A stretch of 23,663 nt of DNA from a virus. Within the stretch, counting starts at the first letter, position 1; each line of letters begins with the position of its first letter. Shown in pieces: positions 1-19,623 of the stretch. The position numbers were made by a program, and so were the translations under genes. Under the pieces are notes generated by a model. That model searched no databases, was not told where the DNA came from, and worked only from the letters and a program-made list of their open reading frames with translations. The stretch covers positions 1-23,663 of the IMG/VR virus record IMGVR_UViG_3300044727_000029; one strand, 5' to 3'.

Positions 1-247
1 GCGGCTGGTTGTGGCCGATCTTCGGCTTGGCCGCCTCGGGCTTGGGCCGAGTGTCGACCTTGGAGAAGGCGCGCTGGATCGCCTCGCGGCGCGAGGTCGG
101 CGGCGCCTCGGGCTTGGCCGGCGCCTGCGAGCCCACAGGAGCTGGCGCGCTGACCGGGTTGGGATTGACCGGGACTTCGGTCTGGCTCGGCTGCGGGGCT
201 GGCTGCGGCGGCGGGGCGGTATCCGGGGCGACTGCGGTATCTGACAT
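1..247 (-). CDS. Probable scaffold-type late protein, N-terminus only (runs off left edge)
   Basis: The 82 visible residues begin MSDTAVAPDTAPPPQ and are a long Pro/Ala/Gln-rich, probably disordered leader (residues 1-50). A basic helical stretch follows (SRREAIQRAFSKVD), then the short motif IGHNQP at the left edge. The start is well supported: AGGA lies 8 bases upstream of the ATG at 247. Proteins with a disordered Pro/Ala leader followed by GHN(Q/N)PP are common in phages of alphaproteobacteria, and in this position, downstream of portal and minor virion genes, they often are scaffold or pre-head proteins. That role is inference from layout and recall; the conserved part lies outside the window. 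It is the last gene of the leftward late operon seen here. The gap 248-331 shows only its ribosome-binding site. Confidence 0.75.
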   Translation of the reverse strand, partial: MSDTAVAPDTAPPPQPAPQPSQTEVPVNPNPVSAPAPVGSQAPAKPEAPPTSRREAIQRAFSKVDTRPKPEAAKPKIGHNQP

Positions 248-331
248 GGCGACGTCCTGCGTGGCCGCGACGAGCGGCGGTTAGGACGAGCCTGTGGAGT
301 GCGTCGGCCGGACCCCCGTCCCGCCGTCAGA

Positions 332-649
332 TCACCGGGCGCGGTGGCCTGCCTTGAACTTCTCCGCCGCAGTGCGCAGCGCCTTGCGGCGCGCGTCCTT
401 CACGGCGCGCTGGTCGGTCGAGCGCACCAGCGGCTTTGGCTTTTCGTTGCCGACCTCGATCAGCCCGAGCGATCGCCCGACCGCGCGGAACTGACGCTTA
501 CTCTCGTAGAACCTTCCGTCCACCTGCTCGGTCGGCGGCATCGCGTCCGAGATCACGGACGGGCACGGCAGGCTTGAGCGCGCCACCGGGATGCTGCGCC
601 GGTCCACGCGCCAGCGGCCCGGCTCCACTTCGATCAGCCTCACGTCCAT
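332..649 (-). CDS. Small conserved phage protein, unknown function
   Basis: This 105-residue basic protein starts MDVRLIEVEPGRW. The start at 649 is chosen because AGGAG sits 6 bases before the ATG; an in-frame ATG at 664 lacks such a site. The centre carries VDGRFYESKRQFRAVGRSLG followed by IEVGNE, a pattern (VDG-x-FY-x-SK-x2-FR-x3-R-x2-G-x-x-EVGN) that I recall from small conserved proteins in structural regions of podovirus-like phages. The C-terminus is Lys/Arg rich and predicted helical. There are two cysteine-free halves and no membrane segment. Its 5' part overlaps the 3' part of the upstream reading frame by about 150 bases, so the two genes share DNA or the upstream one is translated differently. 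I infer a minor virion or assembly role from position only. Confidence 0.7.
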   Translation of the reverse strand: MDVRLIEVEPGRWRVDRRSIPVARSSLPCPSVISDAMPPTEQVDGRFYESKRQFRAVGRSLGLIEVGNEKPKPLVRSTDQRAVKDARRKALRTAAEKFKAGHRAR

Positions 650-848
650 CGGCAGCTCCTGCAAGCATCAGCAGCGGCGGTACCACGAAGGTGACGGCGA
701 GCGCCATGCGCGGCGCCACCACCTTGGTCACCGGCGTGCCGCGACCGTTGGCCGCCTCGGACACCGGCACGCCCAGACGCGGGAACGTGCCGGTGACGTC
801 GATCACGGGCAGGCCGCCCGCCGCTACGGTAACGACCGGCCATCCCAT
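498..848 (-). CDS. Small late protein with a long out-of-frame overlap
   Basis: The frame opens with MGWPVVTVAAGGLPVIDVT preceded by AGGAG seven bases upstream, an excellent ribosome-binding site. The first 57-60 residues are hydrophobic and beta-rich, with the repeating flavour GLPV/LGVPV/TPVTK. Such short beta proteins are frequent between virion genes of rhizobial phages (recall, no family name). After about residue 66 the composition changes abruptly to Arg/Ala/Gly-rich sequence typical of a GC-rich shadow frame, and this continues for some 50 residues to a stop at 498. There it overlaps the better-looking 105-residue gene that starts at 649. Either the protein truly carries this tail, or the functional product ends or shifts frame near 650. 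Confidence is high for the N-terminal part only. Confidence 0.6.
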   Translation of the reverse strand: MGWPVVTVAAGGLPVIDVTGTFPRLGVPVSEAANGRGTPVTKVVAPRMALAVTFVVPPLLMLAGAADGREADRSGAGPLARGPAQHPGGALKPAVPVRDLGRDAADRAGGRKVLRE

Positions 849-857
849 GTTGTTCTC

Positions 858-1079
858 CTACTTGTCTGCCGTCGTGGCTGTTGCGGCCTTCACCGCCCAC
901 ATCGCCGCTTCTTCGTAAGCAGTCTGCGCCAGCGCGGCGCAGCGCCCCTGCTCGGGAAATGGCGACTTGTACTGCTCGCAGAGATCGATCAAATCGGCGG
1001 TTTTCTGCTTGATCTGATCGACCACGCTATCGCCGGACGGATTGAACGAAACGCGCACGCGATCTTGTCCAAGGCTCAT
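858..1079 (-). CDS. Acb2/Tad1-like hairpin protein, candidate anti-defence sponge
   Basis: This is a 73-residue protein with two predicted helices. Residues 13-35 (NPSGDSVVDQIKQKTADLID and the following CE) and residues 46-70 (RCAALAQTAYEEAAMWAVKA) match the pattern I know for the small Acb2/Tad1 hairpin family: NPSG at the start, a D-x-IK-x6-LIDLCE helix, then R-x2-ALA-x-T-x2-EEAAMWAVKAAT. Characterised members, Acb2 and Tad1, are phage proteins that bind and sequester the nucleotide second messengers of CBASS or Thoeris defence and so stop host immune signalling; they act in the cytoplasm of the infected cell. Family assignment is by recalled motif; the ligand is unknown here. The gene lies six bases after the preceding TIG-protein gene with AGAGG upstream of its ATG, and so is co-expressed with late genes. 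Many family members sit in this structural-gene neighbourhood. Confidence 0.72.
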   Translation of the reverse strand: MSLGQDRVRVSFNPSGDSVVDQIKQKTADLIDLCEQYKSPFPEQGRCAALAQTAYEEAAMWAVKAATATTADK

Positions 1080-1085
1080 CGCCGG

Positions 1086-2039
1086 TCACCTCTTGCCCTT
1101 CTTGACGCGCTTGCTGCTCGGCGTGTCCTTCTTTGGCTTGCGCTGCTGCTCGCGCTTGGCGCTGCTCATGCGCGCGACCGCGGTGAACTCGAACGACAAT
1201 ACGTCGCTCATCTCCTCGCCGCGCGATACTTCGACGTCGACGATCTCCGCCGTCGCCGACACCGGGCAGTCCGCGGTCAACTCGGTCGGGGACACGACGA
1301 TCGTCGGCACGTCGACGTCGTCGAACACCACCACGCAATTCGGGCCGAAGCCCGAACCGGTGACGGTGAGCGGGAACGAGCCGGAGCCGACCACCGCGGT
1401 GTCGGGGCTGATATCGGTCAGCACCAGCGGCGGCAGGTTCTGCGGGTCCTCCGGGACCTGATTGGGTCCGTCCGAGCCGGTGAATACGTGCGAGCCGGGA
1501 GGCTCGTTGATGCTGACCAGCCGGTCGGGCTCGCCCAAGCCCCCGCCGCCTTCCTTGGCCTGTCGCTGGCGGTTCTCCGCCTCCTGCACCTGATCGCCCG
1601 CGTCCTTGGTGTGATCGAGGCCGAGGCTCGGCCACTGCTCGACCTTCACCTCCGGCTCGGGCGGCGCCACGCCGGCAATGCTCTCCATGCCGAGCCGCTT
1701 GGGGTCGACGATGCCGCCGGGGTCCTTGATCCGCGCGTTCGGTGGCCCGGTTTCCTCGGGCGCCACGCTCGGGATCGCCGGATTGACGTTGTCGCGGGTC
1801 TGCTGGCCGTGGTGGCTGGTGTCGTCGAGCCGGTCCTCCGGCTTGGTGCGCTCGATGAAATCGAACGGCTTCTCCTCAAGCAGCTCGCGCCGGTCGTCGC
1901 CCTCGGCCTTGGGCAACCGCTCGGGCTGGTCGTCCTTGCGCTTGCGGCCGTCGTCGAACGGCCGATCCTTGTTGATCTCGGCCTCGCGCTGGCGCTGGCG
2001 CTCGTTACGGCCGTCGTCGGGCGTGCGTGGAGTGTTCAT
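1086..2039 (-). CDS. IPT/TIG-domain late protein with charged N-terminus
   Basis: The protein has 317 residues; its ATG overlaps the stop of the upstream gene as ATGA (2036-2039), which fixes the start. Three parts can be seen. Residues 1-70 are highly charged and Arg/Asp/Glu rich (NERQRQREAEINKDRPF), likely helical or disordered. Residues about 70-200 are Pro/Gly-rich linker sequence. Residues about 205-285 form an immunoglobulin-like IPT/TIG domain, recognisable from DISPDTAVVGSGSFPLTVTG followed by SGFGPNCVVVF and a closing FEFT strand. The last 30 residues are strongly basic (KREQQRKPKKD, KRVKKGKR). TIG domains in phages are usually surface-exposed virion modules that bind carbohydrates or other proteins. 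A decoration or head-surface role is inferred. Confidence 0.75.
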   Translation of the reverse strand: MNTPRTPDDGRNERQRQREAEINKDRPFDDGRKRKDDQPERLPKAEGDDRRELLEEKPFDFIERTKPEDRLDDTSHHGQQTRDNVNPAIPSVAPEETGPPNARIKDPGGIVDPKRLGMESIAGVAPPEPEVKVEQWPSLGLDHTKDAGDQVQEAENRQRQAKEGGGGLGEPDRLVSINEPPGSHVFTGSDGPNQVPEDPQNLPPLVLTDISPDTAVVGSGSFPLTVTGSGFGPNCVVVFDDVDVPTIVVSPTELTADCPVSATAEIVDVEVSRGEEMSDVLSFEFTAVARMSSAKREQQRKPKKDTPSSKRVKKGKR

Positions 2040-2749
2040 GTGAACGTCCAATTCGTTGCGTTGCTGGGGGTACCGCCGACGCCGTTGACGACCGTGACCG
2101 GCAGGGTGCCGGCCGTGGCCCGCTTCGGCGCGTTGGTCACCGTCAACGAAGTCGCGCTCACGAAGTTCGTCGTCTGCGCAACGCCGTTCACAAAGACGAC
2201 GCTGGAGCGGTTGAAGTTGGTTCCGGTCACGGTCAGCAGCGTGGTGCCGGCGCCGGAGACGTTGCTCGCGCCGCTCGCCGCCGACGTCGTCGGGGTGCCG
2301 GTGCCAACCGTTCCGGTCAGGTAGGAAGCATGGCTGGCGTTCGGCGACAGGGTGTAGGCGCCCAGATCCGACACCGCCTGCGTCGGGCACTCGGCGCGCG
2401 AACCGGGTGCGGTGACCACCACCTCGGTGCCGGCGCCCTCGTGCGCCACGGACGTGGAGGCCGGGACCACGCCGCCGGCCGCGCCGGGGTAGCTGTTCTC
2501 GGTGCCGCCCGCGGTCGCGCCGGTGCCGGAGGCGAGCGCCGCGGTATTGGCCGCAAACGCGGTGAGAGCGCCGGCGGTGCCGTCGTCGAAGTAGGGCGGC
2601 GGCGCGGAATTGAAGATGTTGTTGTCGAAGTTGTCGGCGTAGGTCGCCTTGGTGAGATTGGGCGGATTGGGCGGCGTGGCGCCGGTGAACGACATATTCG
2701 TCGGCGGCGTCGGGCTGGGCGGCGTAACCGTCAATGCACTTTGGGCCAT
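2036..2749 (-). CDS. Virion-associated protein with C-terminal IPT/TIG domain
   Basis: The product has 237 residues, starts MAQSALTVTPPSP and has AGGAG 7 bases before its ATG. The N-terminal 40 residues are Pro/Thr-rich, the middle (about 40-160) is Ala/Gly/Thr-rich beta-type sequence, and residues 163-237 are an IPT/TIG fold. The TIG signature is TLLTVTGTNFNRSSVVFVNG, then SATSLTVTNAP and a final GTLPVTVVNGVGG hairpin. Very few charged residues and no signal peptide are seen. The fold is typical of outer-surface or tail-associated phage proteins. The next gene in the operon also ends in a TIG domain, so the two are probable partners or duplicates. It is the first gene after the plus-strand insert at 2785-2976. 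Confidence 0.78.
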   Translation of the reverse strand: MAQSALTVTPPSPTPPTNMSFTGATPPNPPNLTKATYADNFDNNIFNSAPPPYFDDGTAGALTAFAANTAALASGTGATAGGTENSYPGAAGGVVPASTSVAHEGAGTEVVVTAPGSRAECPTQAVSDLGAYTLSPNASHASYLTGTVGTGTPTTSAASGASNVSGAGTTLLTVTGTNFNRSSVVFVNGVAQTTNFVSATSLTVTNAPKRATAGTLPVTVVNGVGGTPSNATNWTFT

Positions 2750-2777
2750 TGTCGTCTCCTCTCGGGTTGAGTACCAT
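2749..2777 (+). promoter_or_regulatory. Candidate promoter for the isolated plus-strand gene
   Basis: TTGTCG (2749-2754) and TACCAT (2772-2777) are separated by 17 bases; each matches four of six sigma-70 consensus positions. The expected transcription start, about 7 bases after the -10 box, falls at 2784-2785, which is the ATG of the following gene, so the message would be leaderless. No Shine-Dalgarno site is visible before that ATG, which agrees with leaderless translation. The call is weak on box quality alone and gains weight from that agreement. Confidence 0.35.
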
Positions 2778-2784
2778 AGTCCCC

Positions 2785-2976
2785 ATGCACGCGCTTGAGC
2801 AAACGATCCGCGACCTGATCGCGCGCAAGAACGCCGCCACCGCGGGTTCGGCCACGTATCGCATGGCCGTGCGCCAGCTGACCGGCCTGCACCGCACCAG
2901 CGCCGAGGCGGAGCCGATCATCGAGGAACTCGATCCGCTCGAATGGGGCGGCGTTCATTTCGGATACCGCGACTGA
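2785..2976 (+). CDS. Small plus-strand gene inside the leftward late operon, unknown function
   Basis: The 63-residue product begins MHALEQTIRDLIARK and ends WGGVHFGYRD. It has a natural protein composition (two amphipathic helices, residues 2-16 and 24-45, then an acidic patch EAEPIIEELDP). The opposite-strand frame over the same bases reads as Arg/Gly/His-rich sequence and looks like a shadow. No ribosome-binding site is present before the ATG; the gene may be leaderless. It lies between two minus-strand genes and its last 22 bases overlap the end of the 542-residue protein gene in convergent orientation. A lone inverted gene with its own promoter in a late operon is the usual form of a phage moron. 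Function is unknown. Confidence 0.55.
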   Translation: MHALEQTIRDLIARKNAATAGSATYRMAVRQLTGLHRTSAEAEPIIEELDPLEWGGVHFGYRD

Positions 2977-4583
2977 TCGGCGATCGCGCCCATTCCGACG
3001 GCGCCCATCAGCGCGTACATCGGGATTTCACCTTTGATGATCCCGCGCCGCAGTATCTCATCCTTCGGCATGCCGGTAAGGCGGTGCGTGCGCTCGATGC
3101 TCTCGTTGATCGTCTGGATGAACGGCTGTCCCGCCGTGTAGGACGGGTCCTTCATGTTCTTGAAGCCGGACCAGCCGACGTCCTGATAATTCTGCGGACG
3201 CACGCCGACCTTGGCGGCCTCCTCGCCGAGCACCTTCTCGTACAGGCCGTAGGTCCCCGGCGGCGGCATCATGACCTTGGGCGTCATGCCCGACGTCATC
3301 TGCTCGTCCATCGTCGCCGCGCCGCGGTTGCCGGTGAAATTCTGCGAGAAGTTGTGCCGCTTCGGGTTGGCCGCGCCGAGCGCGGAGAAGCCGCCCTCGT
3401 CGAATATCTTCTTGTGCATCGCCATGTTGCCGGAGGCGTAGCGTCCGCCGATCGGGAACGGCATCTGGTGCGCGGCCTCGGGGTACGGCTTGCCGGTGGC
3501 GCGCAGGTAGTTGCCGTAGTGCGCCATCATCCAGTTCGAGGTAGGATCGGCGCCGCCGGTCGTGGCCGCCATGCTGGTCGCGATGCGATCCTGAAACGCC
3601 TTGCGCCCGGCCTGCGGCCCCAGCTCCTTGATGAACTCGTCCTCCAGCTGCTTCATCGCGTACCAGTCGGCCGTGTTCGGGAGTTGCGTACCGCGCTCGA
3701 ACGCGGCGCGCAGGCGCGTGCGTGCCTCCTCGCTGCCGATGTTCTCCATGTGCTTGTCGATCGTCGCCTGCTTCTTCGGGACGATCGTTGTCGTGTCCAC
3801 GTTCGGCGGGTAGTTGGCCGGATCGACGTGCTGGCGCTGCGCGACGTCGAAGTACGGCTGGTAGCCGTTCTTCGCCATGTCGTCCGATATTCGCTTGCGC
3901 TCCTTCTGGAAGGCTACGGCCTCGGGCGTCAGCTCCTTCGACCAGAACTCCTTCTTGGTCTTGGGGTCGATCGCCAGCACCGGAGGCCCGACCGGCGGGT
4001 ACTCCTCGGCGTACTGGCCGAAGCGCGCCGCGACCGGCGGGTTGTTGTGCCCGATGCCCGGCGGCGTCCAGTTGGTCACATCCGCCACGCCGCCCATCAC
4101 GGCCTTGCCGCGCGGCACGCGCGGACGACCCGCGGCCTCGGCGGTGTCGGAGCCGAGCACGGCACCAGCCGCCGCGGGGATGGCCTTGCGTCCGATCCTA
4201 ACCGGGTTGAACAGCGTGCTCGCGCCGAGCACGTCGTCGGGCGCGAGCATGTCGCCGGCCATGTCGGCCATCTTCATGCCGCCGACCACCGGGCGGATGT
4301 CGGCCGGACCCTGCTGGCCGGCCAGCCCGCGCGCCACGTCGGCTGAACGCTGCACCGCCTGCTGCTGCCTCTCGTCGCGGTGCTGCGCCTGCTGGGCGCG
4401 GTCGTAGGCGTCGAACGGCGCGTAGGTGGTCGGGCTGTACTGGTCGGTATGGGCCAAATGGCCCATTTGAAATGCATCGGCGACGGAGGGCTGGTCGGGC
4501 CAGCGGCTGTCGACCGAATAGTTCGGCGTGTCGACCGGGCGGTCGAGGTAGGACAGGCCGAACGGGTTGTAGCGGTCGCTCAT
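2955..4583 (-). CDS. 542-residue virion-type protein, possibly an internal or ejected protein
   Basis: The start at 4583 is fixed by ATGA overlap with the upstream gene and by the sequence MSDRYNPFGLSYLDRP. I do not recognise a named family with confidence. Residues 1-100 are Asp/Gln-rich and hydrophilic, with a DRAQQAQHRDERQQQ helix. A hydrophobic Ala/Gly segment follows (about 133-150). Residues 176-183 read GIGHNNPP, echoing IGHNQP in the protein at the left edge. A long globular region (about 200-510) includes a Trp/Tyr/Asn-rich stretch, NWMMAHYGNYLRATGKPYPE. The C-terminus is a Gly/Ala/Met hydrophobic segment ending IADQSRYPK, strikingly like the tail of the ART protein next door. Position and composition suggest an internal virion protein delivered with the DNA. 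That is inference. Confidence 0.75.
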   Translation of the reverse strand: MSDRYNPFGLSYLDRPVDTPNYSVDSRWPDQPSVADAFQMGHLAHTDQYSPTTYAPFDAYDRAQQAQHRDERQQQAVQRSADVARGLAGQQGPADIRPVVGGMKMADMAGDMLAPDDVLGASTLFNPVRIGRKAIPAAAGAVLGSDTAEAAGRPRVPRGKAVMGGVADVTNWTPPGIGHNNPPVAARFGQYAEEYPPVGPPVLAIDPKTKKEFWSKELTPEAVAFQKERKRISDDMAKNGYQPYFDVAQRQHVDPANYPPNVDTTTIVPKKQATIDKHMENIGSEEARTRLRAAFERGTQLPNTADWYAMKQLEDEFIKELGPQAGRKAFQDRIATSMAATTGGADPTSNWMMAHYGNYLRATGKPYPEAAHQMPFPIGGRYASGNMAMHKKIFDEGGFSALGAANPKRHNFSQNFTGNRGAATMDEQMTSGMTPKVMMPPPGTYGLYEKVLGEEAAKVGVRPQNYQDVGWSGFKNMKDPSYTAGQPFIQTINESIERTHRLTGMPKDEILRRGIIKGEIPMYALMGAVGMGAIADQSRYPK

Positions 4584-5548
4584 GGCCGCGCTCCGTATGT
4601 GCTCTGGTCGATCGTGCCGCCCATCGCGCCGGCGCCGAGCACGCCGCCGGTGGCGCCGATCACGCCGTACTTCGCCATGATGTCGAGCTTGGAGGGGTCG
4701 AAGGCGACGTAGTTGTAGGTCTGCGGCTTCTGCAAGTCGCCGACAATCGAGCGCCACCAGTCAGCATACGGCGATACCTGCTGTTCCTTCAGCGCCGCCG
4801 CCAGCGCCGCTTCGCGCGAGCCGTGCTGGCCTATCATCCGCTTCGCTTCGGCATCGTACATGCGCGAGCCCTCATCGAGATAGCGAATGCCGGGGATGCC
4901 TGCCTCGTCGCGAAACACGTTGCTCGCGCGCGGCTTGTCTTCAATCGCGGCGATGCCGCGGTACGCCTCCTCGCCGGTCATCTTCTCGGGCGAGCCGAAC
5001 AGCCACTTCTTGGCGACATTCCATGCTGCCGGACCCGCAGGCTGCTGCGCGAGCGGCTTGTCCCAGTCGAGCAGCTCCTCAGGCTTGGCCCTGAAGTTCA
5101 CCTCGTAGGTGCGCGGGCCGATCTGCTTGCCGCTTTGTATCATGTCGATGGCTGCGGTGAATTTGTCGAACATCGGGCCTTGCTTGTACGCCGCTGCCAT
5201 CTCCTGCAATGATTTCAAGGTCGCGTTGGGATCGAAACCGTGCTGCTGCAAGCGATCCGCCGCCATCTGCTCGACGTTACGCTGCCACGTCTCATTATGC
5301 GGCACGAAGTCGCCGAACCGCTTGTCGTAGAAGTTTTTCCAGTATTGCCCGCCTTGCCCAGACACGGCCGGATTTTCCGCCGCGTAGATGCCGTGGCCGT
5401 AGACCTGCGCGCCCTCGCCCGTGCCGATCTTGGCGAGGTCGAACTTGTCGAAGTCATGCGGGCTGGAGTGGTAGACGTGGATGCCGGTCGGCGTCGGGCC
5501 GCCGACCTTGCCCGCGAGCACCGCCGCGATCTTGTCGCGCCAGCTCAT
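4580..5548 (-). CDS. ART-PolyVal-type ADP-ribosyltransferase-like virion protein
   Basis: This 322-residue protein starts MSWRDKIAAVLAG; the ATG at 5548 has GGAG 9 bases upstream and shares one base with the preceding stop (TGATG). The domain is recognisable as the ADP-ribosyltransferase fold found in phage polyvalent proteins. It shows VYHSSPHDFDKFDL (residues 25-38), then GEGAQVYGHGIYAAENP (44-60), YEVNFRAKPEELLDWDKPL (148-166), GIPGIRYLDEGSR (217-229) and NYVAFDPSKLDI (279-290). Relatives modify proteins with ADP-ribose from NAD+ and are thought to be injected with phage DNA to reprogramme or disarm the host. The His of HSSP and the GHGIYAAE block fit the NAD-binding motifs; catalysis is unproven. 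The C-terminal 30 residues are Gly/Ala hydrophobic and end TIDQSTYGARP. Confidence 0.85.
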   Translation of the reverse strand: MSWRDKIAAVLAGKVGGPTPTGIHVYHSSPHDFDKFDLAKIGTGEGAQVYGHGIYAAENPAVSGQGGQYWKNFYDKRFGDFVPHNETWQRNVEQMAADRLQQHGFDPNATLKSLQEMAAAYKQGPMFDKFTAAIDMIQSGKQIGPRTYEVNFRAKPEELLDWDKPLAQQPAGPAAWNVAKKWLFGSPEKMTGEEAYRGIAAIEDKPRASNVFRDEAGIPGIRYLDEGSRMYDAEAKRMIGQHGSREAALAAALKEQQVSPYADWWRSIVGDLQKPQTYNYVAFDPSKLDIMAKYGVIGATGGVLGAGAMGGTIDQSTYGARP

Positions 5549-5640
5549 CAGAACGCTCCCACCGCCCAGAACACCAGCACCAGACACAGCACCGCGAGCC
5601 CGACCAGCGTGTACATCGCGATGCGGTCGCCGGCGATCAC
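5548..5640 (-). CDS. 30-residue single-span membrane peptide
   Basis: A GTG start at 5640, two bases from the previous stop, is preceded by GGAGG 7 bases upstream, the best ribosome-binding site in this stretch. The product is about 30 residues: a short polar head (IAGDRIAMYT) followed by an uninterrupted hydrophobic span of roughly 18 residues (LVGLAVLCLVLVFWAVGAF). The stop overlaps the next ATG as TGATG, so translation is coupled. Tiny one-helix proteins of this kind are frequent in phage late operons; some are holins or spanin helpers, but nothing here assigns that role. The strong ribosome-binding site and both tight junctions support a real gene despite its size. Confidence 0.7.
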   Translation of the reverse strand: MIAGDRIAMYTLVGLAVLCLVLVFWAVGAF

Positions 5641-5641: not shown

Positions 5642-6658
5642 TCACAGCCTCCCCGGAATGTAGGCGCGCCGCCCGAAGTTCAGGACACCCGGCGGCGGGA
5701 TCAGCGGTGCGCCGCGGTCGACCTCCAGCTCGGCAACGCTGGTCGTCACAATGATCGCGAGCGGCGACGCGGTCAAAACAATATCGCCGGCGGGCGGCGC
5801 CGCGGTGACGATCAGGTCGGCTGAATTGCAATGAATTGCAATTGGCAGCGTCGCGGCGATCAGGACGTAGGCGTCCTGCGTGATCGCGACGCGCAGGTCC
5901 GCGGTCTTGGGCGTAACGGTGACGCCGAGCGGCGTGCCGGTCAGGACGAAGGCGTCCGAGATCACCGTGACGCGCAGGTCGGCGGTCTTGAAGCTGGCGG
6001 TGACGCCGAGCGTCGTGGCGACGATCTGGTTGCCGCTCGACTTGACCAGATTGGCGGTCTTGAAGCTGACCGTGACCGGCAGCTTGGCGGACGTCAGCCG
6101 CCACGCCGAGCGCAGGGTGGCGGTCTTCGGCGCGACGGTGACTGACAGCTTGGAAGATGTCAGCCGCCGCCCGGCTGACAACGTGGCGGTCTTGGGGCTG
6201 ACAGTGACTGACAGCTTGGCGGATGTCAGCCGCCGCCCGAGCAGCAGCGCGGCGGTCTTGGGCGTGACGGTGACCGGCAGCGGCGTGCCGGCTACCCGAC
6301 GGCCGGAGCCAACCGACGAGGTCTTGAACGCGACCGTGACCGGCAGAGCCGAGCCGGTGAGGATGTAGTTGCGGCGGATCTTCAGGTCGGCGGTCTTGGG
6401 CGTAACGGTGACGCCGAGCGTGGTCGCGGTCAGGCGGAAGTCGCGGTGCGCCGAGAGGCTGGCGGTCTTGAAGCTGACCGTGACGCCAAGCGTCGAGCCG
6501 GTGAGCCGGTAGTTGCGCTGGACCTTGAGGTTGGCGGTCTGCAGCGTGACGGTGACTGCGAGCGTCGCGGTGGTCTGCCCGAGCTGGCCGTCCCAGTGCG
6601 CCGCGTCCCACTTGCCGCGGTCCCATCGTTCCGGGACGACTGGCTTGACGAAGGACAT
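5642..6658 (-). CDS. Twelve-repeat beta-rich virion protein
   Basis: The 338-residue product has three parts. A 27-residue head (MSFVKPVVPERWDRGKWDAA and following) is Trp-rich. About twelve tandem units of 22-29 residues follow (residues 28-316), each of the type LT-x3-L-x-VTV-x2-KTA-x-L, often followed by a basic RR or RN pair. A 22-residue Pro-rich tail ends the protein. The alternating VTV and KTA-x-L strands suggest a beta-solenoid or repeated beta-hairpin rod. I do not recognise a family. Such repeat rods in phage structural operons are usually fibres, head spikes or surface adhesins. Spacing to the upstream gene is 9 bases and the ribosome-binding site is weak. No catalytic motif is seen. 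The start MSFVKP is preferred to an out-of-frame ATG just upstream. Confidence 0.8.
   Translation of the reverse strand: MSFVKPVVPERWDRGKWDAAHWDGQLGQTTATLAVTVTLQTANLKVQRNYRLTGSTLGVTVSFKTASLSAHRDFRLTATTLGVTVTPKTADLKIRRNYILTGSALPVTVAFKTSSVGSGRRVAGTPLPVTVTPKTAALLLGRRLTSAKLSVTVSPKTATLSAGRRLTSSKLSVTVAPKTATLRSAWRLTSAKLPVTVSFKTANLVKSSGNQIVATTLGVTASFKTADLRVTVISDAFVLTGTPLGVTVTPKTADLRVAITQDAYVLIAATLPIAIHCNSADLIVTAAPPAGDIVLTASPLAIIVTTSVAELEVDRGAPLIPPPGVLNFGRRAYIPGRL
5711..6577 (-). repeat. Coding tandem repeat array, 12 units of 66-87 bp
   Basis: The units encode the LT-x3-L-x-VTV-x2-KTA-x-L repeat of the 338-residue protein. The central units (about 6060-6260) are shortest, exactly 22 codons, and most alike. 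The 15-base block TGACTGACAGCTTGG, for example, recurs at 6139 and 6205, 66 bases apart, and is followed in both copies by near-identical sequence. Outer units are longer and more diverged, as expected if the array has grown from the middle by recombination. Confidence 0.85.
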
Positions 6659-7102: not shown

Positions 7103-9505
7103 TCACACTCCCGGTCTGGTCGGCGGATTGCTCATCTTGAATTGCTGCATGGCGCGGCGCTCGCCCTGCTTCGCCAGCATGTCCTGCTGCTTGATCTGCG
7201 ACGCCTGCTTCTGCAGGTCGATCTTGGCGGCGTTGGCCTGCAGGTCGGCCTGCTTCTTGACCATGTCGGCCTGATGCTTCTCGCGGTCGGCCATCATCTT
7301 GAGCTGGGTCTGCTGCGCCTTCTCCTCGCCGTCGCCCTGCTTGGCGCGCAGGTCGGCCAGCTTCATCTTCTCGTTGGACGCGATCTTCATCTGCTCGTGC
7401 TTGTCGCGCATCGCCATCTCGGCCTGCTTGAGCTGGGCGTCCTGCGCGTCCTTCTGCTGGGCGTGGCCCAGCTTCATCGCCTCGATCTCCTTGGCGGTGT
7501 TGGCCTGTATCGTGGTCGGGTCCGGCCCCTTGGGCGCCTCGGCCTTGGTCTGCATCAGCTCGACGAGGTCGTCGATCGCGCCGTCGAGGCTGCGCCCGGC
7601 GCGGTAGGGGGCGGTTGCGAACTTTAAGACCTCGCCGCAGAAGCCGGCGGTCTGCGGCTCGATCATGATCATCTGGGTGAGCTGGGGCAGGAGCTGCGCG
7701 AGCACCGCGACGAACTCGGCGCGGCGCTGCTTCTCCGAGTTCTCGTCGAGCTGGATGGTACTGTCGCTCTCGATGTCGAGGGTGAAGGACTTGGTGCGGC
7801 TGTCGCGGAACAGCTCCATGACCTGATCGAAGGTCGGCGCCTCGATGATCTTCTTGAGCGCCTTGTGGCCTTCGGCAACGACAGCCTCGGCCTGCGCCAG
7901 CATCGCCTGCGGATCACCGCCGGGCGGCTGGCCGGGCGCGGGCGATCCGCCCGGCGACGCGGCTGGCGGGCCGCCGGGCGGCGCTCCCGGAGCGGTCGGA
8001 CCGCCGGGTGGGGGTCCACCGGGAGGGGGTTGCTGCTGGGAGAGCATCTGGCGAGCCATGGCGAGCATCTGCTGTTGCTGCTGCAGCTGCTGGGACAGCT
8101 CGCGCGCCTGCTTCTCCTGCATCTTCGTCGTCGGCAATTGCGTCTGGCTCATCGCGATGATGGTCAGCTCGTCGAAATTCTCGGTGATGATCTCGGCCGT
8201 GATGTTGACGAGGTCGCGCGCGATGCGGACCAGCTCCTCCTGCTTGTCCTTGATGCGGCTGGAGCCGTACTGCGTCTTGAGTTCCTGCGCGCCGAGCGTC
8301 TCGCGCGCGTCGGTGGCGCCGCGCATGATGTCGCTCAGGCCCATGATCTGGTAGATGTCCTGAATGATCTGCTGGCGCAGCGTGACGCACTGCTGGATGG
8401 TCGCCGCGATCTCCTGAATAGGCAGCCAGATGATCACCTCCTTGGAGCCGCCGAAGGCGGCCCAGTTGGAGATCGGGACCAGCATGCGGCCGGGCGTGTT
8501 GGTGGTGATGGCGGCCTGAATGGCCTCGGACAGCTCGGCGCCGCCGGCCGGGTAGAAGCCCTTCGCCTCCAGCGCGCTGGAGAGCGCGTGGATCTTGGCG
8601 GTCAGGGTGTCGATCTCGTCGAGCTGGTCCTCGTACTGCAGCGCGTCCGGGACGGGCACGAGGCTGCCGCGCTGCAGCGTCCCATACGCCGGCTTCGGAC
8701 ACGGAAAGAAGTCGACGCAGTCGAGGTGCGGGTCGGCCTCGTCGAGCACGTCCTCGCAGCCCTCGGCGACCCAGACCACGCGGCGCTCGGTCTTGTCCCA
8801 GATCTCCCAGAACTTGGCGCGCTCGCGCGCATCCGCGCCGCCGATCTCCTTGACGTCGCGGTCGACCTTGTAGTCGGCCTCCTTGTAGCTGTCGCCGCTG
8901 GTGGCGTGGAACCGCTCGCGCGCCTGCGCGCGGGTGAGGTAGCTCGCCGCGGCGACCCACGTCACCTCGAACCAGTTGCGCGCCACGGTGTGGAGGAAGT
9001 CGCGGCGGTGCTTGAAGTCGACGCAGACGCACTCGTAGTCGTGGCTTTTGTCCTTCTCCTCGTAGCGGCACCACGCCACGCCGCGGCCGTAGAGCGCGAC
9101 GTCGTTGCGCACGAGCAGCATCAGGTCGTTGATGTGGCAGAGGTCGAAGGACGCGGTGACGCACCGCTCCAGAACCTCGCTGGCGGCCTGCGGCACCGGC
9201 CGGCGGTCCTTCCACTTCGGCGTGACGACGGGCTGCGGCGGCTTGGCGTAGATGGAGGGGCCGATGACCTCGATGTTGGCCCAGAGCATCTGGAACTCGC
9301 GGTCGCGGCTGGCATTGCTCAGGCGGTCGATGTTGGCATAGCGCCTGTCGATCTTGTCGCAGTGGTCGTTCCAGTCGTCGAACGCCTTCTCGCTCTCGCG
9401 CAGCAGGTTGAGCCACGCATCGGCCTTGTCGGGTTCGAGCCTGACGTCGAACTCCAGATCGTCGTGGCGGACGTCGTCGTCTGCAGGTGCGGGTGCGTCA
9501 ACCAT
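7103..9505 (-). CDS. Portal protein (P22-like head-tail connector)
   Basis: The 800-residue product would form the dodecameric ring at one capsid vertex through which DNA is packaged and ejected. The N-terminal helical region includes FQMLWANIEVIGPSIYAKPP (residues 71-90), a familiar pattern in podovirus-type portals, followed by QPVVTPKWKDR and a stem/wing region to about 460. The QLQQQQQ block lies near residues 465-480. It is followed by an unusually Pro/Gly-rich linker (about 485-530), then a basic, Gln/Lys/Met-rich coiled coil (about 680-795), as in the barrel extension of long portals. The start is clear: AAGGAG 7 bases before the ATG, which lies 8 bases inside the upstream gene. The large terminase lies upstream, separated by two small genes. 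Confidence 0.9.
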   Translation of the reverse strand: MVDAPAPADDDVRHDDLEFDVRLEPDKADAWLNLLRESEKAFDDWNDHCDKIDRRYANIDRLSNASRDREFQMLWANIEVIGPSIYAKPPQPVVTPKWKDRRPVPQAASEVLERCVTASFDLCHINDLMLLVRNDVALYGRGVAWCRYEEKDKSHDYECVCVDFKHRRDFLHTVARNWFEVTWVAAASYLTRAQARERFHATSGDSYKEADYKVDRDVKEIGGADARERAKFWEIWDKTERRVVWVAEGCEDVLDEADPHLDCVDFFPCPKPAYGTLQRGSLVPVPDALQYEDQLDEIDTLTAKIHALSSALEAKGFYPAGGAELSEAIQAAITTNTPGRMLVPISNWAAFGGSKEVIIWLPIQEIAATIQQCVTLRQQIIQDIYQIMGLSDIMRGATDARETLGAQELKTQYGSSRIKDKQEELVRIARDLVNITAEIITENFDELTIIAMSQTQLPTTKMQEKQARELSQQLQQQQQMLAMARQMLSQQQPPPGGPPPGGPTAPGAPPGGPPAASPGGSPAPGQPPGGDPQAMLAQAEAVVAEGHKALKKIIEAPTFDQVMELFRDSRTKSFTLDIESDSTIQLDENSEKQRRAEFVAVLAQLLPQLTQMIMIEPQTAGFCGEVLKFATAPYRAGRSLDGAIDDLVELMQTKAEAPKGPDPTTIQANTAKEIEAMKLGHAQQKDAQDAQLKQAEMAMRDKHEQMKIASNEKMKLADLRAKQGDGEEKAQQTQLKMMADREKHQADMVKKQADLQANAAKIDLQKQASQIKQQDMLAKQGERRAMQQFKMSNPPTRPGV

Positions 9506-9899: not shown

Positions 9900-10171
9900 G
9901 GCGCGCGCCAGTCGCCATTGCGCACGGCCGGCCCGGTGCGGCGCCACTCCTGATAGCGCTTGTAGGCGGGGCTGGCCTCGAACAGCGCGCGCTCGTGCGC
10001 CGTCACCGCGTCGGCGCAGCGGTCGAGCGCGTCGAGGTCGACCACGTCCTGCGCGCGCTGCTCGCGCAGCTTCTCGCGGGCGGTGGCGAGCTGCCAGCGG
10101 GTGTCGGCGAGCTGCGCGCGCAGGTCGCGGATGACCGCTGACAGGCTCGGCTTGGTCTTGCGCTTCTTCAC
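9896..10171 (-). CDS. Coiled-coil protein between terminase and portal genes
   Basis: The 91-residue basic, helical product starts MKKRKTKPSLSAVIRDLRAQ. Heptad-like hydrophobic spacing runs through LRAQLADTRWQLATAREKLRE (written here in parts), and there is a Trp-rich C-terminus (YKRYQEWRRTG). Its ATG overlaps the terminase stop (10168-10171) and its stop overlaps the next ATG, so it is translationally coupled on both sides. No family is recognised. Location suggests a packaging accessory or head-assembly factor; nothing in the sequence decides this. Confidence 0.7.
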   Translation of the reverse strand: MKKRKTKPSLSAVIRDLRAQLADTRWQLATAREKLREQRAQDVVDLDALDRCADAVTAHERALFEASPAYKRYQEWRRTGPAVRNGDWRAP

Positions 10172-11541
10172 AGCATGGCCCTCCGTTTCGGTTCGGGCGG
10201 CGGCGGGATGATCCAGCCGCTGAAGGCGGGGTTGGGCGGCGCTTTTATCTTACGGATGGGAGCGCGGCGCCACGCCATGCTCAGGTAGCGGAAGGCGTCG
10301 CTCGGGTGGCTCGTCCAGTCGTGGACGGCGTTGGCCCGGAACGCTTTCTTGTCGTCGTCCCATTCGCGGCGGTACTGCTCCAAGGCGTCGAGCCCTCCGG
10401 TCTCAGTGCGGGGGTGAAACACGCAGAGGGGGAGAGTGCGGCGCACCGCATTGATGCCGTCGTCAAGGCTGTGATGGGGCACGAGCAGCGGACGGAGCCC
10501 CATGCCGGACATCGTCTCAACTCGGGTTCGTCCGCTGCCCCATTCCTTGATCTTGGCATCATGAGGAACATAGTCGTCACCGTGTTTCCAGCCATGGTCG
10601 CGCGCCTTGCTTTCGATCACGCCGGCGTAGTGCTCCAGACCGACGCCGCTCGCCGCGTAGTGGTCGAGGATGGCGATCTGCGCGCCGCGCGGCTGGAACC
10701 ACCAGATCGAGGTGTCGTCGCCGACGCCGAGGTCCCACGCGCGGTGGACCGGCTCGCCGGCGATCGCGTTGACCGGCGCGACGCGGCCCTCGTCGCGCAC
10801 GTCCTTCATCTCGCGGGCGTAGAAGGCGCCCAAGATGGCGGCGTGCCAGTCGCAGAGGTACTCCTGCCGGAACTGGGCCTCGCCGACGTCCGCGCCGTAG
10901 AGGGCTTGGTACTCGGCGAGCGCCTCTTCGAGCTGCAGGGTGGAGAGAGTGCCGGTGTCGACCGCGGTCAGCCGCTCGCAGAACCAGCCCGGCGTCTTGG
11001 AGGCATGGCCGAACATGGCGTGGGCGTGGTTCCTTCCTCTTGGCGTGGTGATGAACGCGGCCCAGCCGTTGTTCTCCTCGACGATCGGCCGGTGGTAGGC
11101 CCACGCGGAGGGGTTTGCCAATGCCCACTCAGAGTAGGTAACCCCCGCAACACCCGAGCCAACAGTCGCGTCAAAGCGGTCGGAGCCGATGAGCTGCCAT
11201 GTCGAGCCATTTTTGAACCTGATGAACATCTCGTGGTCGTTGGTATTGGCGCGCATCGCCTCGGGGAACGCCTCGTCGATCCGCCGGCGCCCGCTGTGCG
11301 GGTTGACGGCGGTCCAGATCGCCTTGCGGGCCTGCCCGTATTCCGGCAGGCAGTGCCAGTAATTTCCGACACGTTTCCAAGCACTTACCGCGGAGTGGTG
11401 GAGGCAGATCTCGTCCTTGCCCGCCCTCCTGTGCCACACCGCCATGGCGCGCTTGCCGCCGTCCTGCAGGTAAGTCCACAGCGCGGCCTGATGCCGCCGC
11501 GGCCACCAGTCGCCGTGCGGCAGGTCGACCTCGATCGCCAC
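10168..11541 (-). CDS. terL: Terminase large subunit (packaging ATPase-nuclease)
   Basis: This 457-residue protein drives DNA into the prohead and cuts concatemers. The ATPase part shows a phage-type Walker A, WHRRAGKDE (residues 36-44), Walker B VTYSEW (134-139) with the catalytic Glu, and the coupling motif TTPRG (165-169). The C-terminal RNase H-like nuclease shows D270 in HRAWDLGVGDD, D328 in YVPHDAK and the terminal acidic block DWTSHPSDAFRYL (408-420). The HRRAGKD form of Walker A is usual in the terminases of P22- and T7-like relatives. The start is GTG at 11541, four bases from the preceding stop, with GGAG 9 bases upstream; there is no ATG alternative that keeps the N-terminal DLPHGDWWPRRHQ adenine-binding region. 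Confidence 0.93.
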   Translation of the reverse strand: MAIEVDLPHGDWWPRRHQAALWTYLQDGGKRAMAVWHRRAGKDEICLHHSAVSAWKRVGNYWHCLPEYGQARKAIWTAVNPHSGRRRIDEAFPEAMRANTNDHEMFIRFKNGSTWQLIGSDRFDATVGSGVAGVTYSEWALANPSAWAYHRPIVEENNGWAAFITTPRGRNHAHAMFGHASKTPGWFCERLTAVDTGTLSTLQLEEALAEYQALYGADVGEAQFRQEYLCDWHAAILGAFYAREMKDVRDEGRVAPVNAIAGEPVHRAWDLGVGDDTSIWWFQPRGAQIAILDHYAASGVGLEHYAGVIESKARDHGWKHGDDYVPHDAKIKEWGSGRTRVETMSGMGLRPLLVPHHSLDDGINAVRRTLPLCVFHPRTETGGLDALEQYRREWDDDKKAFRANAVHDWTSHPSDAFRYLSMAWRRAPIRKIKAPPNPAFSGWIIPPPPEPKRRAML

Positions 11542-11544: not shown

Positions 11545-11964
11545 TCAGGCTCCGCAGGCGGGCGCCGCGCCGGTCACAGGCTGGGGGCGTATGGCGGCGC
11601 GGCGCCCTACGGCGACCGTCTCGGCGAGGAGCTGGCCGCCGATTTTAGTGTGTGGTTTACGGGCCGGATTAGCTGACCAGCTAAATGGGTTATCAGGGTT
11701 TTTAGTGGGATGATTAGGGATGATTACGGGCGGGCGTATGACAGTTGGCCGCGCACCTTCAAGATCACCGATGGTACCATTTACGATCGATTGGGGGTGG
11801 GGATTAGCCAGCCCTTGCGACAGGTACTGGCTAATCCCCTGACCATTACGCACGACGCTACGCACACCATTAAGCCTAATCATGACCGACGGATTAGTAA
11901 TCCGCTGTTTATCGCTGCGAGAGTAGGACAACTTGCACTCATGTCGCATCGTTGTCGCGTCCAT
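11545..11964 (-). CDS. Doubtful 139-codon frame in the lower-GC pre-terminase segment
   Basis: An uninterrupted frame links the candidate small terminase (overlap 26 bases) to the large terminase (gap of three bases), as expected for a gene in this tight operon. Against it, the sequence is markedly lower in GC than its neighbours and its codons favour A/T at the third position. The predicted protein has no recognisable pattern beyond recurring NP pairs, which merely translate the GGATTA repeats, and the ribosome-binding site is poor. The segment may instead be non-coding DNA with packaging or regulatory sites. I list it so that the 400-base gap is explained, not because the protein is well supported. 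Confidence 0.25.
   Translation of the reverse strand: MDATTMRHECKLSYSRSDKQRITNPSVMIRLNGVRSVVRNGQGISQYLSQGLANPHPQSIVNGTIGDLEGARPTVIRPPVIIPNHPTKNPDNPFSWSANPARKPHTKIGGQLLAETVAVGRRAAIRPQPVTGAAPACGA
11666..11903. repeat. Cluster of GGATTA palindromes and direct repeats before the large terminase
   Basis: Within 240 bases lie three perfect inverted repeats. TTAGCTG/CAGCTAA spans 11669-11684 with a 2-base spacer. GGGGATTAGCCAG/CTGGCTAATCCCC (13 bp) spans 11799-11839 with a 15-base loop. GGATTA/TAATCC spans 11891-11903 with a 1-base spacer. A tandem GGGATGATTA pair lies at 11707-11726. GGATTA occurs at 11666, 11801 and 11891, and TAATCC at 11832 and 11898. Position beside the terminase genes suggests a pac or cos site or small-terminase binding region; a replication origin or attenuator is also possible. 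Confidence 0.7.
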
Positions 11965-12232
11965 TATTCTCGATCGTGAGTGGAGGTGCGAGCGCAGCCT
12001 GCACGATATGTCTAATAGTCACGCGGATGTCACCCTCGCCGTCCTCGCCAGTGTGCGTCTGCGGCGGCCGGCCCCAGCCGCGGTCGAGCAGCGCAATCGC
12101 CGCGGCGACGCGCGCTGCCTCCTGCTTGCCGTTGCGCGCCACGCCGGCGAGCGTCTGGATTGCCTCCAGCGCATGCGCACGAGCATAGCTTCGGATTTCG
12201 GTAGGCGCTCTAGCCACTTGCCTCCGGGTCAC
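11939..12232 (-). CDS. Candidate terminase small subunit or terminase-adjacent accessory protein
   Basis: The 97-residue product starts with GTG at 12232, overlapping the upstream stop by four bases (GTGA), with GAGGA five bases upstream. An N-terminal helical part, TEIRSYARAHALEAIQTLAG, is followed by AARVAAAIALLDRGWGRPPQ. The pattern A-x2-HT/AL-x-AI-x-TL ... AA-x-ALLDRGWG(R/K)PPQ is common in short proteins encoded just upstream of large terminases in phages of alphaproteobacteria. It resembles the helical half of small terminases. I see no classic helix-turn-helix. DNA recognition for packaging is therefore inferred from position and recalled pattern. Confidence 0.6.
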   Translation of the reverse strand: MTRRQVARAPTEIRSYARAHALEAIQTLAGVARNGKQEAARVAAAIALLDRGWGRPPQTHTGEDGEGDIRVTIRHIVQAALAPPLTIENNGRDNDAT

Positions 12233-12526: not shown

Positions 12527-12796
12527 TCAGGCTCTGGCGTCAAGTTGCCCGGGTAGTCGAGGCGCTGTCCGATGCCGCGGCCCGAGCCGCAGATGCAGCA
12601 TCAGCCGCAGCAGCTTGACTGCACTGGCTGGCACCTCGGCCTCGCCCGCGACGTAGCGCCGGCTGGTGCGATCGCTCACGCCAAGGAAGCGCGCGCCGCT
12701 GCTCTGGTTCAGCCCGAGCGCCGCCAGCAGGCGCTCATACTCGGCCGGGCTGATCGCCGCGACCTTGCGCCAGTCGGCGTAGTTCTGGTTTGCCAT
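12527..12796 (-). CDS. Small helix-turn-helix transcriptional regulator
   Basis: The protein has 89 residues. The start at 12796 has GGAG 7 bases upstream; an upstream in-frame ATG adds only a short non-conserved leader. Residues 17-35 (SPAEYERLLAALGLNQSSG) and 36-51 (ARFLGVSDRTSRRYVAG) form a lambda-repressor/XRE-type helix-turn-helix: helix 2 contains the Q-x2-GARFLGV turn, and helix 3 is the RTSRRY recognition helix. VPASAVKLLRLML follows as a third-domain helix. This LGLSQ-x2-AA-x-LGV-x-x-RT-x-RRW/Y form is typical of small phage regulators. It is the first gene of the leftward operon and lies just inside the divergent promoter pair, so it probably regulates one or both promoters. Confidence 0.8.
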   Translation of the reverse strand: MANQNYADWRKVAAISPAEYERLLAALGLNQSSGARFLGVSDRTSRRYVAGEAEVPASAVKLLRLMLHLRLGPRHRTAPRLPGQLDARA

Positions 12797-12821
12797 GTCA
12801 GCTCCATTTGATGCTGGCACC

Positions 12822-12850
12822 ACGATATGCACTTTTTTGCACTAGGTCAA
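12822..12850 (-). promoter_or_regulatory. Leftward promoter of the HTH/late operon, with a GTGCA direct repeat
   Basis: On the minus strand TTGACC (12850-12845) and TATCGT (12827-12822) are spaced exactly 17 bases. Between them the sequence reads GTGCA-AAAAA-GTGCA, two direct GTGCA copies one helical turn apart and so on one DNA face, a likely operator. The start point would be near 12815, giving an untranslated leader of about 20 bases before the regulator's ATG with GGAG in it. Box fit and geometry are good; activity is untested. Confidence 0.6.
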
Positions 12851-16767: not shown

Positions 16768-17114
16768 GGCTTGCGCTCCGCCTGCATCATCGTTCCCGAC
16801 GGGTTGTCGGTCAGGGGCCGCCACGCCAGCGAGCACAGGCCCTTGTGCTGCTCGATCGTGATTTCGCGCGGGATGCAGCCCATTTCGCAATAGAACTGGA
16901 TCGCGATCCCGTCGCGCCGGGAGCTGGGGTTGCTGGTCTTTCCGACGTTCTGCTGCACCGTCCCGTCCGGGTTTACGCGGGTCTTGGTGACTTTCCCGTC
17001 CTCGCCGTCGCGCGTATATACCGTCACGGCGCCGTGATGCGCCCACATATTCCCGCATTCCGGGCAGCACAGCAGGTATTGATTTTTGAAGTCTAGTTCG
17101 ACATCGTCGAGCAT
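16761..17114 (-). CDS. Zinc-finger protein co-transcribed with the primase-helicase
   Basis: The product has 117 residues, starting MLDDVELDFKNQY at 17114 with AAGGA upstream; a longer in-frame start lacks a ribosome-binding site. Two cysteine knuckles are separated by a beta-rich insert: C17-PE-C20 (in CCPECGNMWAHHG) and C76-EMG-C80, together a likely four-Cys zinc ribbon. Conserved-looking features include VTVYTRDGEDGKV and ITIEQHKG. I recall this C-P-x-C-G ... C-E-x-x-C-x2-...IxQHKG pattern in phage replication clusters of alphaproteobacteria without assigned function. It may bind DNA or the helicase. Its stop lies inside the first codons of the primase-helicase gene. Confidence 0.7.
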   Translation of the reverse strand: MLDDVELDFKNQYLLCCPECGNMWAHHGAVTVYTRDGEDGKVTKTRVNPDGTVQQNVGKTSNPSSRRDGIAIQFYCEMGCIPREITIEQHKGLCSLAWRPLTDNPSGTMMQAERKPC

Positions 17115-17186
17115 TGGTCTGCGTCCTTCTCGCATAAGGTCCAGATCGGGCCGGGGCGCCCTCCAAGCGCCTCGGCCCCTCGTCCG

Positions 17187-17489
17187 CTAGGGCGCGGCGA
17201 GCAGGCGATCAATATCCGCCGAATTGCGCACGAAGTAAACTTCAACACCTAGTGCCTTGTACTGGTCGTGGTACCACTGCTGGTGCGGCGCGATCCGCCC
17301 GCGCTTCGGGCGCTTTAATTCCGCGAATATAATCCGCGGCCGTGGCCCCGGCAGGATTACCAGCCGGTCGAAAAATCCGCGCTTGCCGACGCACATCACC
17401 TTCTCGCAGACGCCGCCGAGGCGCTCGACCCGCGCCACCAGCTCGCGCTCGACCGTGGCCTCCTTGACAATGGCCGACATCCCATTCAT
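17187..17489 (-). CDS. VRR-NUC domain endonuclease
   Basis: The 100-residue protein is essentially one VRR-NUC module, a PD-(D/E)XK nuclease of the kind found alone in phages and fused in FAN1. The N-terminal helix VERELVARVERLGGVCEK is followed by the catalytic Asp of GFFDRLVILPG (D41), the E-x-K of IIFAELKRP (E57, K59) and the downstream Gln of HQQW (Q70). These are the family's active-site positions. It probably trims branched or junction DNA during phage replication or recombination. Two ATGs, 17489 and 17480, are possible; neither has a strong ribosome-binding site. It is the first gene of the leftward replication block and diverges from the nuclease gene at 17535. Confidence 0.85.
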   Translation of the reverse strand: MNGMSAIVKEATVERELVARVERLGGVCEKVMCVGKRGFFDRLVILPGPRPRIIFAELKRPKRGRIAPHQQWYHDQYKALGVEVYFVRNSADIDRLLAAP

Positions 17490-17534
17490 GCTCGCACCAG
17501 AACATCGTGAATTAAAACTGGCAAGGTGAATTTA
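17490..17534. promoter_or_regulatory. 45-base divergent intergenic region with a GTGAATT direct repeat
   Basis: This short, AT-rich gap must hold the 5' ends of both replication operons unless promoters lie inside the flanking genes. GTGAATT occurs at 17507 and again at 17526, about two helical turns apart. A perfect TTGACA lies at 17464 inside the VRR-NUC gene, but no good -10 box follows at 16-18 bases. AAGG at 17523-17526 serves as ribosome-binding site for the rightward gene. Confidence 0.4.
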
Positions 17535-18797: not shown

Positions 18798-18827
18798 CTG
18801 CCGGCCACATGAAGAGGACTGCGAATT

Positions 18828-19607: not shown

Positions 19608-19623
19608 GCCTTCCCTGAGCCAA

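Follow-up and report, generated by a model that had tools for sequence, protein, structure and literature searches.

The Acb2 and Tad1 proteins of phages share a helical hairpin, described by Pfam family PF24729. In the passages of a review that concern their structures (PMC12043709), Acb2 is laid out as a short N-terminal helix followed by two long antiparallel helices, and Tad1 carries an N-terminal four-stranded antiparallel β-sheet ahead of the hairpin helices. For Vs.4, the Acb2 of phage T4, the relevant sections of Jenson et al. (PMC10097602) state that hexamer formation requires L29, A66, A73, and A77 and that cyclic GMP-AMP (cGAMP) is contacted by Y8, H11, K23, R79, and F82, with a disturbing effect of S74N. 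Statements on ligands made here are drawn from passages of PMC10097602, PMC12657218, PMC11722364, and the review PMC12043709. Here, we describe a relative of these proteins encoded in a stretch of viral DNA of 23,663 nucleotides (the window), positions 1 to 23,663 of the IMG/VR record IMGVR_UViG_3300044727_000029. The gene, located at positions 858 to 1079 of the minus strand, encodes an Acb2-type hairpin protein of 73 residues (the hairpin protein), predicted to be a sponge for a nucleotide signal.

Membership of the Acb2/Tad1 hairpin family, proposed in a sequence-only reading of this DNA, was confirmed by the match to PF24729, which spans residues 14 to 67 of the hairpin protein at 52.6 bits (cut-off, 27; E value, 5.3e-14). 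Used as positive controls, a T4-type Vs.4 and three Acb2 relatives scored 64 to 71 bits with this profile, and a relative from a Flavobacterium phage scored 51.4. The protein also matches PHROG 717 (E value, 2.5e-5), which is the set of T4 Vs.4 homologues used by Jenson et al. according to the section of PMC10097602 that concerns it.

Further relatives were gathered from IMG/VR with short exact peptides, and 206 of 218 candidate stretches were found to encode one. The best 80 of these 206 loci were retained and, having been found with the peptides of a single query, they have conservation partly built in. Profile comparisons were made with three alignments: A1, the alignment of this branch, with 43 sequences (the window protein and those of 42 of the 80 loci, after near-duplicates and certain other loci had been removed); A6, with 22 Acb2/Vs.4 sequences; and A3, a mixed alignment that includes 18 Acb2/Vs.4 sequences. 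With hhalign, A1 matched A6 over 50 columns (probability, 95.9; E value, 5.5e-9), and the match to four Acb2/Vs.4 sequences only was weaker (80.7; 1.3e-5; 31 columns). Searched against the PDB, A3 retrieved Vs.4 (7uq2; 6e-22) and Acb2 p26 (8ixz and 8h2j; 2e-20), both of them close to rows of A3, followed by "Acb2 homolog 43" (9ptq; 0.03) and Tad1 (1.2). A1 alone matched T4 Vs.4 only at an E value of 0.059, with no solved structure matching better, and the hairpin protein as a single sequence gave nothing meaningful in the PDB (best E value, 1.2). Since these PDB sequence searches are weak, family membership is argued from Pfam and from the profile-profile comparison. Judged by these profiles, the hairpin protein truly belongs to the Acb2/Tad1 hairpin family. 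It is 60 to 79% identical to its relatives in A1 other than a near-identical copy (locus L004), and 15 to 25% identical to the 18 Acb2/Vs.4 sequences of A3 (18% for the copy of the T4-type phage). This branch, here called FNPS-type, is apparently an uncharacterized part of an otherwise known family. Literature searches on Acb2 and Tad1 brought up no paper on it, although one cannot be excluded, and the putative Acb2 genes of two genome notes (PMC13348362 and PMC11953737) were left unchecked for this branch.

The AlphaFold2 monomer model obtained with A1 is confident (mean predicted local distance difference test score [pLDDT], 91.3) and contains helices at residues 3 to 7, 18 to 36, and 42 to 68 and no strands. 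The same pipeline, run with A6 on an Acb2 relative (locus L107), placed helices at residues 4 to 7, 16 to 39, and 47 to 68 (pLDDT, 87.7). The Acb2 model shares the short N-terminal helix and the hairpin, and its helix 1 is five residues longer. The helical hairpin expected in the sequence-only reading is therefore predicted with confidence, and the modeled layout is, more precisely, of the Acb2 type and not that of Tad1. Tad1 has the hairpin helices in common with the hairpin protein, whereas its chains (PDB 7uav and 8kbg), as far as their descriptions go, comprise 123 to 125 residues with the N-terminal four-stranded sheet, which the 73-residue model lacks. In the BFVD structure library, the best two matches are named Acb2/Tad1 hairpin (E values, 5.5e-5 and 1.6e-3).

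Residues L29, A66, A73, and A77 of Vs.4 (PDB 7uq2) correspond to L30, A51, A58, and A62 of the hairpin protein, all invariant in the 43 rows of A1. The ligand contact K23 corresponds to K24, which is invariant in the mixed alignment (31 of 31), and an AxTxxxEAxMWA motif is also held in common. Hexamer formation by the hairpin protein is supported by this residue pattern and, as far as the predicted fold and the oligomer residues tell, the protein works like Acb2. It is probably a counter-defense sponge of the Acb2 layout for a nucleotide second messenger, with the cyclic-oligonucleotide-based antiphage signaling system (CBASS) a likelier target than Thoeris. Six helical hairpins would assemble into a hexamer, which would capture, without cutting it, the nucleotide second messenger of an infection-triggered bacterial defense. 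This messenger would most likely be a cyclic di- or trinucleotide of CBASS, and less likely the glyco-cyclic ADP-ribose (gcADPR) of Thoeris, and its capture would keep the suicide effector off. The anti-defense role itself is one that we infer.

Several observations weigh against such a role. The hairpin protein is unmatched in NCBIfam up to an E value of 0.1. Foldseek found nothing in the PDB at an E value of ≤0.001, Vs.4 being ranked 33rd (E value, 8.6), and the VIA-align superposition on 7uq2 (Z score, 6.6; 2.5 Å over 60 residues) is tied with unrelated helical chains; the PDB fold search is therefore not used as proof. The Gly-Tyr pair that is invariant in the 22 Acb2/Vs.4 sequences (G10-Y11 in A6), the Tyr of which stacks on the ligand according to passages of the sources named above, is absent. 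R79 of Vs.4 (R66 in A6; Arg in 22 of 22 Acb2/Vs.4 sequences) is replaced by K64, a conservative change with Lys in at least 90% of the 43 rows of A1. S74 corresponds to A59 and F82 to T67. The invariant N23 of Acb2/Vs.4 is missing, most rows of the branch having Asp (D21) instead, and so is the C-terminal Pro (P71 in A6). T67 does not in itself speak against binding, because Acb2 relatives have Ala at this position and no aromatic residue. In the models, F12 may be an aromatic stand-in for the Tyr of Acb2, which is plausible because the short helix occupies the same place in both and helix 1 of the branch is the shorter one. However, MAFFT and hhalign place F12 elsewhere, so that these two methods and the helix boundaries of the two AlphaFold2 models disagree on the N-terminal register. 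Finally, the strong conservation of the gene, presented below, is unexpected for a gene engaged in an arms race and leaves room for another role.

Since the Gly-Tyr pair is missing and R79 is a Lys, the ligand cannot be assigned, as the sequence-only reading had anticipated; the contact residues are only partly kept. The Gly-Tyr pair and the Arg were looked for as ligand contacts and are not there, and the hairpin protein is for this reason not filed as Acb2 proper. This partial retention (K24 retained, Arg replaced by Lys, and both Tyr and F82 absent) leaves room for a sponge whose main ligand is gcADPR or cyclic ADP-ribose, as in Thoeris, or an undescribed messenger, and not a cyclic oligonucleotide of CBASS. 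Tad1, of the same group, binds both gcADPR and cyclic oligonucleotides according to part of the review PMC12043709. The model of the 73-residue protein is without the β-sheet part, which argues against such a ligand, and we regard this alternative as somewhat unlikely.

Other differences from described proteins were noted as well. The stretch between the helices is much shorter than that of Vs.4. The GYR(E/D)L N terminus and the AQP-like C-terminal end of the Acb2 proteins of Pseudomonas and Vibrio phages (p26; PDB 8h2j and 8ixz) are missing. "Acb2 homolog 43" (9ptq), for which a literature search returned no paper, resembles the hairpin protein in its KTxLEEAxxxAxKA motif and in the Lys at the place of R79, whereas the branch profile does not match it at an E value of 10. 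A hypothetical protein of Flavobacterium phage FCV-1.01 (75 residues; QNI20078.1) belongs to the same FNPS-type branch with 45% identity, but its gene lies one gene away from that of a putative single-strand-binding protein, outside the annotated head genes. Among Acb2 relatives, the one at positions 6001 to 6288 of locus L083 (MN536027.1, 9042 to 9329; PF24729, 68.9 bits) is annotated as "NAD/FAD-utilizing enzyme," and a match in Pseudomonas phage Rollin carries the same name, which is likely a misannotation.

The 73-residue protein and its motifs (FNPSGD, D-Q-IK, LIDLCE, RCAALA, and EEAAMWAVKA) were found as given in the sequence-only reading, to which the strand can now be added. In the list of open reading frames (ORFs) of the window, the gene runs on the minus strand from an ATG at 1079 to a TAG stop at 860 to 858, and the plus strand of 858 to 1079 has a different, unrelated translation. 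A spurious or decayed ORF might be suspected in a GC-rich window with 187 ORFs of at least 40 residues, many of them overlapping. However, three related records contain the intact ORF (100, 100, and 97% identity), it has its own ribosome-binding site, and in distant relatives it combines a low nonsynonymous divergence (dN) with strong synonymous divergence. The ribosome-binding site, a Shine-Dalgarno-like AAGAGG read directly at 1089 to 1094 of the minus strand, lies within the last bases of the upstream gene and precedes the ATG by nine bases. In comparisons of the window with 12 distant relatives, protein identity is 60 to 76%, 57 to 84% of synonymous sites differ, and dN is 0.21 to 0.36; a 13th pair, with L004, involves the near-identical copy. 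Purifying selection on the gene is shown by these values. The gene is real, and we take its spuriousness as refuted.

In the distant pairs, the hairpin protein is far better conserved than the portal or major head protein, as might be the case for a small accessory protein of the head or of packaging that re-uses the hairpin fold without an anti-defense role. In the comparison with locus L073, the hairpin proteins are 69 to 71% identical, the portals 27%, and the major head proteins 28%; for L063, the values are 60% for the hairpin protein and 31%, over 119 residues only, for the major head protein. This contrast is biased upward, since the set was chosen by hairpin similarity, and the comparisons of L059 and L067 were excluded from the argument, their proteins having been taken for major head proteins with no family result for each one. 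In a closer pair (L055 and L079), it is gone, with 81% for the hairpin protein and 77% for the portal. The conservation of the gene is compatible with strong purifying selection as well as with an ancient horizontal spread.

The sequence-only reading had also placed the gene in a late operon between virion genes, and this stands. On the minus strand of the window, the operon runs from the terminase large subunit (10168 to 11541; no Pfam match at an E value of 0.001) and the portal protein (7103 to 9505; phrog_12082, E value, 5e-180) through several genes and two IPT/TIG-domain genes to the hairpin gene. The gene directly upstream (TIG1086; 1086 to 2039, scanned as 1086 to 2036, minus strand) encodes an IPT/TIG and a choice-of-anchor Z repeat domain, and it is joined by an ATGA overlap to the second IPT/TIG-domain gene (2036 to 2749, minus strand). 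Only 6 nucleotides separate the upstream stop from the hairpin ATG, and 9 separate the hairpin stop from the next gene start. This is too small a space for a promoter, and a search of positions 600 to 3000 for sigma-70-like promoter sites found none (0.2 expected). Directly downstream lies a small gene (g640; 498 to 848, minus strand) whose end is uncertain, its ORF overlapping the next one, a late gene of phrog_21669 (function unknown; 332 to 649, minus strand) with relatives beside capsid genes in Rhizobium phage RHph_I3_18 and Bradyrhizobium phage ppBjS10J-1. The window ends before the capsid genes, and the downstream head genes are known from L003 (20 kb from the 42-kb record of a close relative), which encodes hairpin and TIG proteins 100% identical to those of the window, a terminase 93% identical, and others 84 to 98% identical. 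There, the hairpin gene is followed by the phrog_21669 gene and by genes for a virion structural protein, the major head protein, and a tail protein.

A similar placement recurs across the branch. In 38 loci with genes called by a simple script, the neighbors of the hairpin gene (69 downstream and 76 upstream proteins scanned, many short or doubtful ORFs having been dropped by eye) match terminase, portal, and major head families. An exonuclease V/Dda-like helicase is the neighbor in L022 and L045, and a Sak4-like protein was found upstream in three cases. The records of 36 of the 80 loci were searched for terminases, and 20 had a match to phrog_2, some of them weak (E value, 2e-5) or partial. 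Random placement would put the hairpin gene within 2.2 kb of the terminase in 3.2 of these 20 records and within 5.5 kb in 7.4; the observed numbers are 9 (P ≈ 0.001) and 13 (P = 0.005), respectively. Distances were taken as linear on records that are all possibly fragments, and the P values are too optimistic since some records are related (portals 74% identical between L043 and L055 and 77% between L055 and L079; G001 and G002 near-identical). In the window, the terminase and hairpin genes are 9 kb apart. Two records, G025 and G029 (those of L058 and L065), have terminase matches with many in-frame stops, for which a different genetic code, decay, or an interruption may be considered. Placement with head and packaging genes is thus common in the branch and not universal.

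Late placement had been regarded as a puzzle for a protein needed early. The placement is borne out, but the puzzle is weaker than it seemed, given the proximity to the terminase in 9 of 20 records, the Acb2 relative that follows the capsid gene as its second downstream neighbor in a Pseudomonas beetrevirus, and two reports on defense triggers. According to the parts of these reports that concern triggers, an RNA transcript of phage terminase genes is sensed by CBASS (PMC10686824), and phage capsids are sensed by Thoeris (PMC12578639). Co-expression with the triggers of CBASS or Thoeris would make late timing reasonable: the hairpin protein would be translated from the late operon with the terminase, portal, and capsid proteins, when the reported triggers appear. 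Acb2 genes are also found elsewhere, after tail genes and a methylase in Vibrio phage VP882 and, in the T4-type phage examined, one gene away from regB and not in the head module. For packaging of the hairpin protein in the virion, which the sequence-only reading had considered, nothing was found for or against. It is conceivable, though in our judgment unlikely, that FNPS-type hairpins form a sponge class of their own, whose messenger differs from the ones captured by Acb2 and Tad1. Such a class would be strongly conserved in phages of both Alphaproteobacteria and Bacteroidota, and its location among terminase and capsid genes would cause the sponge to be produced along with the products that set off the defense (a "trigger-linked" counter-defense).

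The position among late genes near capsid genes and the proximity to the terminase beyond random placement would also suit the head or packaging accessory protein mentioned above. The distribution of the gene among near relatives argues against it. With the major head protein of L003 as the query, the best 80 of 521 IMG/VR loci with a protein at least 83% identical were taken, 39 of which hold more than 2.5 kb upstream and form the set for the count. The hairpin gene is present in 2 of these 39 loci (L172 and L174, whose records are those of L002 and L003 and whose viruses are closely related to the window virus) and was not seen in the other 37, which have the same head module. The third known copy, L004, falls outside the 39, its record ending between the hairpin and head-protein genes. 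The abutting flanking genes were read in six loci: in L181, L184, and L185, the stop codon of the upstream TIG gene shares bases with the start codon of the gene that comes next (TAATG), with no hairpin gene between them, and the spacing is two bases in L180 and ten in L202 and L203. In the window, one 222-base gene with its own ribosome-binding site stands between these flanking genes (TIG1086 and g640). Since they directly adjoin in six relatives, the hairpin gene looks like a one-gene insertion.

RHph_I3_18 and ppBjS10J-1 share with the window virus and its kin the terminase (63 and 59% identical, respectively, the former being annotated as such), the portal, the phrog_21669 gene, and the major head protein in the same order. 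A PF24729 search of their whole records gave no match, and the same search does detect the family in other records, so that the hairpin is not needed for assembly in these two cultured phages. Moreover, some relatives carry the gene beside replication genes, and placement in a head module is also seen for an Acb2 relative. We therefore consider a head or packaging protein without an anti-defense role quite improbable. The presence pattern is that of an accessory gene, as expected of counter-defense, and not of a core virion gene.

In whole records of near relatives, any PF24729 match was found in 3 of 17, namely, those of L003 and L004 and a third, G042. The last encodes a different hairpin protein (28.1 bits, just above the cut-off) elsewhere in the record, adjoining what appears by eye to be a homologue of the window gene at 11939 to 12232. 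Sponge types may be exchanged between related phages. This hairpin-family protein (L252, 1750 to 2088, minus strand) carries a TKLEEAMFWL motif and presumably resembles Tad1.

Outside IMG/VR, 10 relatives were found in the genomes of 84,980 species with other search patterns, so that the counts are not directly comparable. Flavobacterium phages are the only large group found among cultured phages (146 of 147 records); all of the matches listed (60 of 147 and 40 of 146) are annotated only as "hypothetical protein." Providencia phage PSTCR8lys (L171, 4992 to 5141) encodes, upstream of the terminase, an apparently shortened relative of 49 residues that matches residues 2 to 35 of the query. Two hairpin-family matches occur in G033, the record of L073 (16001 to 16153 and 12566 to 12679, the second partial), and in G004, the record of L010 (49720 to 49875 and 45262 to 45432, the second below the cut-off).

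From the genes shared with RHph_I3_18 and ppBjS10J-1, our guess is that the host of the window virus is rhizobial (alphaproteobacterial). Two neighboring proteins, of 600 and 324 residues, matched no useful family, the latter having a weak endolysin-family match (E value, 0.006), and a plasmid search with positions 1 to 3000 gave no match. A replication module at 14539 to 23582 encodes a VapE-like/Prim-Pol protein, a DUF2800/PD-(D/E)XK nuclease, a family A DNA polymerase, and an SNF2-type helicase. A small MqsA-antitoxin-like protein is encoded at 12527 to 12832 of the minus strand (23.5 bits, below the cut-off of 30). The late protein encoded at positions 4580 to 5554 of the minus strand has a stretch (HSSPHDFDKF...YGHGIYAAE) that presumably resembles the ADP-ribosyltransferase-like domains of phage proteins; family scans gave no support.

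Acb2 is described, in part of a preprint (PMC11722364), as rather uncommon and confined to some groups of phages, against which stand at least 206 relatives of the FNPS-type branch in IMG/VR. Should the branch bind a known signal, sponge activity would be extended to a large and mostly uncultivated set of phages; any other ligand would point to an undescribed defense messenger. Near relatives that differ by this one gene offer a good natural experiment, and the Flavobacterium phages, being cultured, would allow tests of the branch. The recurrent proximity to the terminase allows a test of whether sponges are produced in time with the defense-triggering products, capsid and terminase.
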